From: Candidatus Chloroploca asiatica
GTDB lineage: Bacteria; Chloroflexota; Chloroflexia; Chloroflexales; Chloroflexaceae
Assembly: GCF_002532075.1 (NCBI RefSeq)
Contig: NZ_LYXE01000069.1
Location: forward strand, 1 to 64,000
DNA length: 64,000 nucleotides
Direction: 5' to 3'
In this document: positions 30,835 through 34,720 of the stretch, one piece after another
Layout: each line of letters opens with the position of its first letter
Numbering within the stretch: the first letter of the stretch is position 1
The notes under the pieces: generated by a model
The model's database searches: none
What the model saw: the letters and a program-made list of their open reading frames with translations, nothing else
What the model was told of the DNA's origin: nothing
Program-made: the position numbers and the translations under genes

Positions 30835-30955
30835 GCCCCGGTGAAGAGATCTTTCCTGGGGATAACTGTCTCTCTTCCAATGTGAGGGCACTGGGCTTGT
30901 ACCATGAGATGGTACAAGGCATTCTGTCCAGCGAAGGACAATGAGAGAGGTTCTT

Positions 30956-31606
30956 ATGACGGCAGAACGAGACATTGACGCACAACGTAACGTATTTCTC
31001 GAAGCCTTGCTTGCCATTGATCGCCTCGAAGTGCGGCGCCTCCTCGAAGAACTTGTGTCCGAGATCAGTCCGGTCATAATGGTTGAGCAACTCATCGTGC
31101 CGGCGCTTGAAGTGATTGGTGAACGCTGGGAGCAAGGTGACGTACCGCTGGCACAGGTCTATATGAGCGGGCGTATCTGTGAAGAGATTGTTGATACGCT
31201 CTTGCCAGCGGCGAATGTCCAGCAGCAAAGACAACCTGTCATCGCGATTGCGGTGCTCGAAGACTACCATATGCTGGGCAAGCGGATGGTCTATGCGACG
31301 TTACGCTCGGGTGGCTTTGTCGTCAGCGATTATGGTCGGATTGATACCGATAATCTTGTTGCCAGGGTTGTGCGTGAACGGGTTGCTATCTTGCTTATTT
31401 CAGTGTTGATGCTGCCCTCGGCGTTGCAGGTCAAAGCGGTGCGTGAGCGACTCGATGCGGCAGGATGGCGACCAAAAATCATTGTTGGTGGTGCCCCGTT
31501 CCGGTTTGACCGACAGCTCTGGCAAGAGGTCGGGGCCGATGCGGTGGGCTACACGGCGTCGGATAGTGTTGGGCTGGTGACGAGTTTGTTGGAGGCATCC
31601 GCATGA
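30956..31606 (+). CDS. Corrinoid (B12-binding) protein, MtaC/MetH-cap type
   Basis: 216 residues. The N-terminal helical cap (about 1-90, with VIGERWEQGDVPLAQVYMSG) is that of methyltransferase corrinoid proteins. The C-terminal Rossmann-like domain has the lower-ligand motif DYHMLG (D103, H105, G108), followed by VGGAPF. It would carry methylcobamide between partner proteins. ATG 30956 is chosen because GAGAGG is 5-6 nt upstream; ATG 30941 is in frame. The stop overlaps the next gene (ATGA). No classical MtaB- or MttB-type substrate methyltransferase is nearby, which is unusual. Confidence 0.88.
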   Translation: MTAERDIDAQRNVFLEALLAIDRLEVRRLLEELVSEISPVIMVEQLIVPALEVIGERWEQGDVPLAQVYMSGRICEEIVDTLLPAANVQQQRQPVIAIAVLEDYHMLGKRMVYATLRSGGFVVSDYGRIDTDNLVARVVRERVAILLISVLMLPSALQVKAVRERLDAAGWRPKIIVGGAPFRFDRQLWQEVGADAVGYTASDSVGLVTSLLEASA

Positions 31607-32655
31607 CAGCTATGACTTCACTAGAGCGGGTCTTGACGACGCTTGGGCATCAGGAGCCTGATCGGGTGCCGCTCTTTCTGCTCGTCACAATGCATGGCGC
31701 ACGTGAATTGGGCTTGTCGCTGCGAGACTATTTCGCGCATGCCGAGTATGTGGCTGAAGGTCAGTTGCGGATGGCGCACAAGTATCAAAACGACTGCCTC
31801 TACGCACTTTTTTATGCGGCATTGGAGGTCGAGGCGTGGGGGGGCGAGGTCATCTTCAGCGATGATGGTCCGGCCAATGCTGGCGAGCCCATGATCCGCA
31901 AGCCGGAAGCGATTCGCACCCTCAAAGCCCCAGTGGTCGAAACCTCGCCTGTCCTTGGGCGTGTTCTGGATGCGATCAGGCAGATGCGCTCACGCAGTGA
32001 GGAGGCGATGCCGATTATTGGGGTTGTGATTGCCCCCTTCTCATTGCCCGTGATGCAACTGGGCTTCGAGCAGTACCTGACGTGGATGTACGAACAGCCT
32101 GAGGTTGTCAAGCATCTCTTGCAGATCAACGCAGAATTTGCGGTGGCCTGGGCCAATGCGCAGCTTGAAGCCGGGGCGACGGCCATCTGCTATTTTGATC
32201 CGGTCGCCTCAACCACGGTGGTCTCGCGGGAACAATATCTGGACTTTGATCATCGCCTGAGTAAAGACGTGATTGCACGGATCAAAGGGCCGGTTGCAAC
32301 CCATGTAGCGTCGGGGCGCTGCATGCCGCTGCTTGATGATTTTGCGCAGACGGGGGCGCTCGCGGTTGCGGTCAGTATCGAGGAAGATCTGGCCCTGATG
32401 AAGCAGAAGGTCGCGGGGCGGGTGAGTCTGCTTGGCAATCTGAATGGGATTGAGATGCGTCGTTGGACGGAAGCCGAGGCTGAGGCGGCCGTCAAGGCGG
32501 CAATTGCGGCGGCTGGGCGTGGGGGCGGCTTTATTCTCGCCGATAATCATGGCGAAATCCCCTTCCAGGTGCCCGAAACGACGTTGATGGTGATCAGCGA
32601 AGCGGTACAACGCTGGGGTCGGTATCCGCTCGACTGGGTAGGTAATGAACGTTAA
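31603..32655 (+). CDS. UroD/MtaA-CmuA-family protein (methyltransferase-like) with altered metal site
   Basis: A 350-residue (beta/alpha)8 protein of the uroporphyrinogen decarboxylase superfamily, closest in layout to methylcobamide:thiol methyltransferases (GHQEPDRVPLF start; PVMQLGFEQYLTWMYEQPE). MtaA-type enzymes bind Zn through H-x-C and a later Cys. Here H234 is kept, but the Cys two residues later is A236, and the later Cys position reads NH (H316). A normal thiol-activating zinc site is therefore absent. It overlaps both neighbours, indicating obligate co-expression with the corrinoid protein and the cyclase. It may be a non-thiol methyl acceptor enzyme or a sensor. Confidence 0.82.
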   Translation: MTAMTSLERVLTTLGHQEPDRVPLFLLVTMHGARELGLSLRDYFAHAEYVAEGQLRMAHKYQNDCLYALFYAALEVEAWGGEVIFSDDGPANAGEPMIRKPEAIRTLKAPVVETSPVLGRVLDAIRQMRSRSEEAMPIIGVVIAPFSLPVMQLGFEQYLTWMYEQPEVVKHLLQINAEFAVAWANAQLEAGATAICYFDPVASTTVVSREQYLDFDHRLSKDVIARIKGPVATHVASGRCMPLLDDFAQTGALAVAVSIEEDLALMKQKVAGRVSLLGNLNGIEMRRWTEAEAEAAVKAAIAAAGRGGGFILADNHGEIPFQVPETTLMVISEAVQRWGRYPLDWVGNER

Positions 32656-34720
32656 GCTTTGTCTGCGAGTGTGCCGACACTATTATGAGGATGTCGTACA
32701 AGCTGTCGGTGAACTTGGGTATCCTTTTGTAACCGTTGAAGCGTATGCCCTGACCTGCGGGCGTCCTCAATTGTTGTCGTATACCGATCAGATCTTTGAG
32801 CGACCAGTTGCTGCGTCACGGGCGGATCTGATTGTACTTGGTGCGTGTGCGGCAACACCCGATGCACTCCCGGCGAAGCTAGACGCTCAGACACAGTTGA
32901 TCCATCTCAACCACTGTCTGGTCATGCTCGCCGGGCCAGAGTTGATCGACACCGAAACGAAGCGCGGGGCTTACCTGCTTTCACCGGGGTGGTTGCGGGC
33001 TTGGCGTGCGCATCTGTATGCATGGGGGTTTGATCAAGCGCTGGCCCGTGACTACTTTCACGAGTCAGTCGAAGACTTGTTGTTGCTTGATACTGGAACT
33101 GATCCCGAGGCGCTGTCCAGGTTAGAAGAGTTTGCCGCCTATCTTGACATGCCGTATCGGGTGCGGACAATTGGGCTTGATTATCTCAAGCTCTACCTGG
33201 CGAAAGTCATTTTAGAATGGTATCTCAAGACATCGCAAAGCGAGACGAAACGCGTCTTGCAAGACGCGAATCGCAAAATTGCCGAATATGCGATGGCCTT
33301 TGATCTGCTGGTTGATCTCTCGCAGATCCGTTCAGAAGAAACAACCATTACCGCGATTCGCCATATGTTTGCGATGCTCTTTGGCTGTAACAATTTAGAA
33401 TACGCCCAGATCCAGGGTCATCAGATTGTCGCTGTTTTTGCCAAAGATGGTCATGATCAGCCTGAACGCCACGCTGAACTTGCGCAGGTACTGGCCTCGA
33501 TGGAGCGTGATCACGCCCTTATTCCTCAGGAAGAAGGCTTTTATCTGCGGATTCGCTATCACGATGAGACTTTTGGCCTGGTGGTTGTACGGCATATCAC
33601 CTTTCCCGAATATCGCAATCAATACCTCAACCTGGGGTTGGCGATTGCCAATCAGTGTGGGCTTGCCCTGGCTAATGCGCGCACCTATTCGATGTTGCGC
33701 GAAGCGGAAGCTTCGTTACGGAATGAACGTGATTTGACCGAAGAGTTGCGTCAGATGATGGCCCATCTCAACTCGAATGTTGAGATGGATGCGATGTTGC
33801 ATCAAGTATTAGTGCAGCTTGATAAGATCGTGCCGCATCACCAGTCGCATCTTTTCTTATTGGAAGAGAGCACCCTGCGCCTTGTTTCTGCCCATCCTGT
33901 TGAAGGGCAGGTCAGACTGATCGGGGGAGAGTTTAGTCCTGAACAGCCCCCATTTGCCGAGATTATGCAGCGTCGGATGCCGCTCACGCTTGATGAAGCG
34001 GCCCTGGCGTCACTCGGGCTTCCGATGGTGACAGGTTTCAAGAGCTGGATGGGTCTCCCGTTACTCCATCAAGAGCATCTCCTCGGGCTTTTGACGCTTG
34101 GAAGTCAGCAGGAAGAGACGTATACGCCGAGTCAGGTAACGATGATGCAGGTGCTCGCCAATGAAGTTGCCATAGCCCTCGAGAATGGGCGGCTCTTCCG
34201 CGAAGTCTATATGCTGGCTGGAACTGATCCGCTGACGAGGCTTTACAATCGGCGGCGGTTCAGTGAACTGGCCGAGACCGAGTTCAGGCGCGTGCAGCGT
34301 TATGGGGGCAAACTCTCGGCGATCTTTATGGATATTGACCATTTCAAGCGGGTGAATGATGTCTTTAGCCATGCTGTGGGCGATCAGGTACTGGAGTACG
34401 TAGCAAAGGCGCTTAAGCAGGTACGCCCACTCGATATTGTTGCCCGCTATGGCGGCGAAGAGTTTATCATTGTCTGTCTAGAGACCGGTTTGAGTGAGGC
34501 GGTGCAGGTTGCCGAGCGATTGCGACAGACCATCGAACGCACACCCGTTGAGACGTTGAGTGGGCCAGTGCAGATCACCATGAGCTTTGGGGTCGCAACA
34601 CTTGAACCCGACCTCAGAACCCTGGGTGAATTGATCTGGCGGGCTGACCAGGCGCTCTACCATGCGAAGTGCATTGGACGCAATCGCGTTTGTACCTGGA
34701 AAGAGGCAGAAACGCATTAG
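32645..34720 (+). CDS. DUF1638-GAF-GAF-GGDEF diguanylate cyclase
   Basis: 691 residues. Residues 1 to about 200 match the DUF1638 type found with corrinoid methyltransferase genes (LGYPFVTVEAYALTCGRPQL, LIVLGACA, TIGLDYLKLYLAKVILEWY). Two GAF-like sensor domains follow (about 215-345 and 375-520) with a short coiled coil between them. The GGDEF domain has the active site GGEEF at 603-607 and an intact inhibitory I-site RPLD at 594-597, so it should make c-di-GMP with product inhibition. No EAL domain is present. No membrane segment is seen, so it is cytoplasmic. It is last in the operon, overlapping the UroD-like gene by 11 bp. Confidence 0.88.
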   Translation: MNVKLCLRVCRHYYEDVVQAVGELGYPFVTVEAYALTCGRPQLLSYTDQIFERPVAASRADLIVLGACAATPDALPAKLDAQTQLIHLNHCLVMLAGPELIDTETKRGAYLLSPGWLRAWRAHLYAWGFDQALARDYFHESVEDLLLLDTGTDPEALSRLEEFAAYLDMPYRVRTIGLDYLKLYLAKVILEWYLKTSQSETKRVLQDANRKIAEYAMAFDLLVDLSQIRSEETTITAIRHMFAMLFGCNNLEYAQIQGHQIVAVFAKDGHDQPERHAELAQVLASMERDHALIPQEEGFYLRIRYHDETFGLVVVRHITFPEYRNQYLNLGLAIANQCGLALANARTYSMLREAEASLRNERDLTEELRQMMAHLNSNVEMDAMLHQVLVQLDKIVPHHQSHLFLLEESTLRLVSAHPVEGQVRLIGGEFSPEQPPFAEIMQRRMPLTLDEAALASLGLPMVTGFKSWMGLPLLHQEHLLGLLTLGSQQEETYTPSQVTMMQVLANEVAIALENGRLFREVYMLAGTDPLTRLYNRRRFSELAETEFRRVQRYGGKLSAIFMDIDHFKRVNDVFSHAVGDQVLEYVAKALKQVRPLDIVARYGGEEFIIVCLETGLSEAVQVAERLRQTIERTPVETLSGPVQITMSFGVATLEPDLRTLGELIWRADQALYHAKCIGRNRVCTWKEAETH

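Follow-up and report, generated by a model that had tools for sequence, protein, structure and literature searches.

A putative corrinoid-linked sensory module with a UroD-fold partner and DUF1638 in Candidatus Chloroploca asiatica

The locus

On a stretch of 64,000 nucleotides from Candidatus Chloroploca asiatica (contig NZ_LYXE01000069.1), referred to here as the window, three overlapping genes code for a corrinoid protein, a UroD-like protein and a signalling protein that combines an N-terminal DUF1638 domain with two GAF domains and a diguanylate cyclase (Table 1). An earlier note, drawn up from the letters of the window, had given gene overlaps of 4 and 11 bp, and the coordinates of the open reading frames (ORFs) bear this out. 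A second in-frame ATG is present at position 30941, upstream of the start of the corrinoid ORF. The nearest named relatives are Ca. Chloroploca mongolica (94% identity) and Ca. Chloroploca sp. Khr17 (92%). Since the trio recurs in three phyla with different outputs, it looks like a B12-based sensor that has not been described so far.

The domain assignments made in the earlier note were confirmed. With Pfam, the corrinoid protein gave 55.8 bits for B12-binding and 55.3 bits for B12-binding_2, and the UroD-like protein 187.4 bits for URO-D (PF01208); DUF1638 (PF07796) scored 49.8 bits at a cut-off of 27. These matches, like those of GAF2 and GGDEF, are far above chance. The histidine of the DxHxxG motif is indeed residue 105 of the corrinoid protein. 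Of the two GAF domains, the second is recognized by Pfam, the first only by its fold in the AlphaFold model, where its best VIA match was PDE6 (Z 14.7, root-mean-square deviation (rmsd) 2.9 over 139 residues). The cyclase domain RPLDIVARYGGEEF possesses an intact GGEEF active site and an intact I-site RxxD (RPLD).

Table 1. Genes, domains and motifs of the corrinoid/UroD/DUF1638 locus in the window
Feature	Positions	Strand	Evidence
Corrinoid protein, stand-alone: helical cap and B12-binding Rossmann domain	30956..31606	+	Pfam PF02607 and PF02310
DxHxxG His105 of the corrinoid protein (numbered from the 30956 start)	codon 31268-31270	+	alignment of 21 module corrinoid proteins
UroD-fold partner (MtaA/UroD superfamily), without MtaA HxC...C zinc motif	31603..32655	+	Pfam PF01208, alignments
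Signalling protein, 691 amino acids (aa), DUF1638-GAF-GAF-GGDEF	32645..34720	+	Pfam, structure models, intact GGEEF and RxxD
DUF1638 input domain, residues 1-178, with Cys10, Cys68, Cys91	32645..33178	+	PF07796, model
Long helix joining DUF1638 to GAF1, residues 179-227	33179..33325	+	secondary structure of model
GAF1, residues about 208-352, invisible to Pfam	33266..33700	+	structural match to GAF domains
GAF2, residues 380-514	33782..34186	+	PF13185 and PF01590
GGDEF diguanylate cyclase domain, residues 526-681	34220..34687	+	PF00990, 143 bits; RPLDIVARYGGEEF

Distribution and co-inheritance of the trio

A PF07796 search of 82 genomes of the order detected ten fused DUF1638 genes, and all ten loci have kept the order corrinoid, UroD, sensor. 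The corrinoid and UroD proteins of these loci are 51-71% identical to those of the window across genera, and while the flanking genes vary by genus, the trio itself is constant. The earlier note had named a cyclase without corrinoid genes as a case that would speak against its reading. In profile searches of the 41 genomes of the family, no such case was seen: the corrinoid protein and the DUF1638-GAF sensor matched the identical 12 genomes, each sensor genome having the corrinoid protein and the reverse. Under independence, two such sets would coincide with a probability of 1 in C(41,12) (about 1 in 8 billion), a figure that becomes less extreme when the kinship of the genomes is considered. 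The spread is patchy; in genus g16, for example, two of six genomes harbor the module.

Outside the family, the module was found in Desulfobacterota (L192, L207-L210) and Spirochaetota (L230-L234), which, together with Chloroflexota, gives 22 modules in three phyla. For each phylum sample a few hundred genomes were available, and the phylum names were taken from the labelled search-centre loci L052 and L057; the labels are those of a Desulfobacteraceae metagenome-assembled genome (MAG) and a Spirochaetes MAG. FastTree patristic distances for 19 loci were strongly correlated between corrinoid protein and UroD (r=0.956), corrinoid protein and DUF1638 (r=0.911) and UroD and DUF1638 (r=0.873), and none of 2000 permutations matched these values. 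All three gene trees split into the same two subfamilies, L192/L232/L233/L234 and the remainder. These comparisons support the view that the three genes belong together as a conserved unit.

When the full-length cyclase was used as query on the genome contigs, 78 of 80 loci contained unrelated GGDEF proteins, and only the two Chloroploca relatives were informative. A long frame in G736 turned out to be spurious.

Output domains

The third protein carries a diguanylate cyclase in 12 of the 22 modules, a histidine kinase in nine and an HD-GYP phosphodiesterase in one. The earlier note had suggested that the state of the corrinoid is passed on to cyclic di-GMP (c-di-GMP) output. c-di-GMP is indeed among the outputs, but it is not the sole one, as shown by the kinases and the phosphodiesterase. 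The catalytic motifs of the output domains are intact, save in L233, where the H-box pattern was not matched and Pfam HisKA reached 28.5 bits. GGEEF is present in all 12 cyclases, RxxD in ten of them. The two cyclases of genus g18 (L018, L023) retained GGEEF but contain RDTE (RxxE) at the I-site, by which product inhibition may be lost.

Within the Desulfobacterota, complete trios with a DUF1638-GAF-GGDEF protein exist at L208 and L210; L207 is also of the cyclase type, L209 possesses a hybrid kinase, and at L192 overlapping genes encode the corrinoid protein, UroD and a DUF1638-GAF-PAS-PAS-HD-GYP protein. Three spirochaetal loci (L230, L231, L232) have a DUF1638-GAF-kinase. At the two others (L233, L234), DUF1638 is a gene of its own, located directly before a PAS-histidine kinase-REC gene with a GAF-like N-terminus. 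Such a split form, with DUF1638 beside the kinase, would be predicted from a contact between DUF1638 and the output protein. In the family of the window, the sensors of L137 (G019) and L158 (G017) are hybrid kinases with receiver domains, and the third protein of L019 (G038) is a DUF1638-GAF-HisKA-HATPase-REC protein. Directly after the latter kinase, two response regulators with phosphatase domains are encoded (L019:6615-9272), SpoIIE being confirmed for the first, which suggests a phosphatase-based downstream pathway.

The corrinoid protein

The DxHxxG lower-ligand motif and a GxxW motif in the cap, which places a tryptophan at the residue facing the upper ligand, are conserved in all 21 module corrinoid proteins analyzed. 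At the same cap position, methyl-carrier-type corrinoid proteins from the DUF1638 and related loci analyzed have Phe (25) or Tyr (5). The window protein scored 80.9 bits with TIGR02370 (methyl carriers of the MttC/MtmC/MtbC type), below the cut-off of 215.3. In CarH, this tryptophan and E141/H142 are key residues for adenosylcobalamin (AdoCbl) (PMC11796333), and the counterpart of the tryptophan in the photocobilin SasPcob, Trp61, is stacked against the ribose (PMC10979010). The EH motif, ten residues past the tryptophan, occurs in 0/21 module proteins but in 3/3 CarH-like controls (L134-L136), and GxxH before the lower-ligand histidine was not found in the alignment of the module proteins either. 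The controls stem from Chloroflexota relatives without the module and are, by their residues, probably B12 photoreceptors.

The module corrinoid protein thus holds half of the photoreceptor signature, which on the basis of the alignments is a new combination. A tryptophan without EH would be compatible with alkyl- or adenosylcobalamin and is not diagnostic of light. Neither the methyl nor the light signal envisaged in the earlier note is established; the cap residue differs from that of the methyl carriers nearby, and the photoreceptor signature is incomplete. It is nevertheless conceivable that the module is a B12 photoreceptor acting in trans, in which light photolyses the AdoCbl of the corrinoid protein, with the change then being transmitted to the cyclase, similar to CarH or a photocobilin-diguanylate cyclase but split over several proteins. 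Chloroploca is a phototroph, and the tryptophan links the module to the CarH-like proteins rather than to the methyl carriers. Moreover, regulation of a diguanylate cyclase by B12 is known from the photocobilin AbDPcob (PMC10979010). On the other hand, EH and GxxH are missing, and an obligate UroD-fold partner would not be explained. The hosts also include Desulfobacterota and Spirochaetota, for which we know of no phototrophy. A photoreceptor of this kind is rather unlikely.

The UroD-like protein and the methyltransferase context

MtaA (4ay7) and UroD are the nearest solved relatives of the second protein, in agreement with the UroD/MtaA type proposed in the earlier note. Its scores with TIGR01463 (MtaA/CmuA; 122.6 bits, cut-off 235.4) and TIGR01464 (hemE; 74.8 bits, cut-off 302.95) are below the respective thresholds. 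The residues of the HxC...C motif are the zinc ligands of MtaA. In the alignment of 21 module UroD-like proteins, this motif was found in none: His234 aligns with the MtaA histidine, but the HxC cysteine is replaced by Ala or Gly and the second cysteine by His or Ala. For G019 (L137), two frames were joined across a frameshift for comparison only. The proteins of L137 and L158 lost His234 and Cys240, both invariant in ten other aligned family members. Binding of a tetrapyrrole was rejected, as the FSD aspartate and the RQAGR arginines of UroD are absent in the alignments.

Corresponding to the statement of the earlier note that no substrate-specific methyltransferase is present, profile searches found MTTB in none of the 12 module genomes, including that of the window (the MtaB family was not searched for). 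RACo_C, indicating a RACo/RamA-type activase, was matched in four of these genomes and not in the other eight, among them G032, G033 and G040, each 99-100% complete. In the module-free genome G031, MTTB, RACo and a stand-alone DUF1638 are all located on one contig. The lack of MTTB and the scarcity of RACo indicate that the module is no accessory to methyl transfer of the RACo/MttB kind. It might still be argued that the locus is an ordinary corrinoid methyltransferase operon, with a cyclase or kinase that only shares the transcript and reacts to another stimulus, because the corrinoid and UroD-like proteins both belong to methyltransferase superfamilies. However, the lack of MTTB, the few RACo matches, the absent zinc motif, the occurrence of corrinoid protein and sensor in identical genomes and the variety of outputs fused to DUF1638 (three kinds in three phyla) make this highly improbable.

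The eight genomes without a RACo match also bear on a sensor of cobalamin availability, in which DUF1638 would read apo versus holo corrinoid protein and the UroD-fold partner would be structural. Redox cycling by the RACo route would not be needed in these genomes, and the invariant DxHxxG motif fits as well. By contrast, the partner is a conserved TIM barrel in which many residues are invariant, and this suggests a bound ligand; in addition, an Rfam scan of the window and ten loci revealed neither a cobalamin riboswitch nor any other match at the loci. We regard an availability sensor as improbable.

The DUF1638 domain

The earlier note had connected DUF1638 with corrinoid methyltransferases, and the domain is tied to corrinoid reactivation by both literature and gene order. 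Price et al. reported that a Phaeobacter inhibens DUF1638 mutant requires methionine, that the gene is needed for B12-dependent methionine synthesis and that DUF1638 co-occurs with a RamA-like activase, though no specific function was assigned (PMC5764234). Canonical DUF1638 genes directly follow RACo in corrinoid/pterin/MTTB clusters, as in L145 (corrinoid, pterin-binding, RACo, DUF1638, and MTTB close by). All 31 DUF1638 sequences compared, signalling and stand-alone alike, have Cys10 and Cys91. In the model (predicted local distance difference test (pLDDT) 90.9, predicted template modelling score (pTM) 0.88), Cys10 lies at the end of strand 1, Cys68 and Cys91 in the loops following strands 3 and 4; from these secondary-structure positions, the three cysteines probably line one shared cleft. 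The best Foldseek match was the PrpR sensor domain 2pju (E 1.5e-3, TM about 0.39) and the best VIA match had a Z of 6.8 (rmsd 3.1 over 102 residues), with nothing at Z 8, so the resemblance is just that of a loose bilobed alpha/beta fold. A sequence search of the PDB with DUF1638 plus GAF1 gave no match.

Other arrangements were observed as well. In Desulfobacterota, DUF1638 is fused to Hydantoinase_A/oxoprolinase proteins (L190:5740-8676, L191:4671-7526), possibly yielding one-protein corrinoid activases. Planctomycetota contain DUF1638 stand-alone or in frames of ~950 aa which, by frame length and position only, resemble these fusions. Divergent DUF1638 genes of the Chloroflexota genus g67 have Crp-type regulators in their vicinity (L142:6548-7138, L146:5562-6173), that of L146 also two genes for reductive dehalogenases, which are corrinoid enzymes.

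Proposed mechanism and comparison with known systems

Composition, linkage, co-occurrence, co-inheritance, output swapping and intact output motifs can be read directly from the genomes. On this basis, the locus probably encodes a dedicated corrinoid-linked sensory module and not an ordinary methyltransferase operon, a distinction to which the absence of MTTB, the missing RACo matches and the lost MtaA zinc motif contribute. The corrinoid protein and its UroD-fold partner would constitute the receptor, the state of the bound corrinoid would be read by DUF1638, and the long helix and GAF domains would relay it to an interchangeable output, a diguanylate cyclase in the window and a histidine kinase or HD-GYP phosphodiesterase at other loci. 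We infer here that the proteins are in physical contact, which way the information passes and what kind of signal is involved. In the likeliest mechanism, still a tentative one, the UroD-fold protein might bind a small ligand, probably a one-carbon or alkyl compound, and thereby alter the cobalt, in its redox state or its upper ligand; the cysteine cleft of DUF1638 would sense this state.

Several observations weigh against the sensory module as outlined. The cap tryptophan argues against a simple methyl carrier, and with His234 lost in G017 and G019, the modules need not all share the same chemistry. G017 has a frameshift in the DUF1638 gene and carries the corrinoid gene on a separate contig; G019 has a frameshift in the UroD gene (and a convergent corrinoid gene), and L207 ends at a contig end. 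Furthermore, no consistent metabolic neighbour hinting at the ligand was found among the module loci.

All in all, it seems reasonably likely that the trio represents an undescribed signalling class present in at least three phyla, in which the receptor consists of a corrinoid protein and a repurposed relative of UroD-fold methyltransferases, with DUF1638 as the adaptor that couples the corrinoid state to the synthesis or breakdown of c-di-GMP or to phosphorelay. The earlier note knew of no pathway of this composition, and none was found in the open-access literature, though an account in a subscription journal could be missed. If the proposal is true, cobalamin would be the sensory cofactor of a three-part receptor made from methyltransferase relatives, and DUF1638, known so far only by its genetic link to B12 reactivation, would gain a testable role. 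Lineages of phototrophs, of spirochaetes and of relatives of sulfate reducers would then possess a further, new input to c-di-GMP and two-component signalling. Constructs for testing the proposal are already at hand in the split, fused and output-swapped forms.

Among known systems, AbDPcob resembles the module in that a cap and Rossmann cobalamin domain (DxH, cap Trp) controls a diguanylate cyclase. However, it unites the B12, bilin-binding globin and cyclase domains in one polypeptide and has EH, while the module has a separate corrinoid protein without EH and, in addition, the UroD-fold partner and DUF1638. CarH/LitR and AerR are likewise corrinoid proteins in regulation, and CarH shares the cap GxxW, but in combination with EH. 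CarH binds DNA itself and AerR acts on CrtJ; we know of no UroD or DUF1638 partners of these proteins. The methylcobamide:CoM methyltransferases MtaA, MtbA and CmuA also pair a UroD-fold protein with a corrinoid protein; the module differs from them by the lack of HxC...C, by the absence of a cognate MttB-type enzyme from the genome and by the signalling protein that is always present. Finally, the canonical DUF1638 associated with RACo/RamA (split methionine synthase, betaine-type clusters) has the same invariant Cys10 and Cys91. It is a stand-alone protein in corrinoid reactivation, whereas DUF1638 of the module is the input domain of a signalling protein or is encoded by the adjoining gene.

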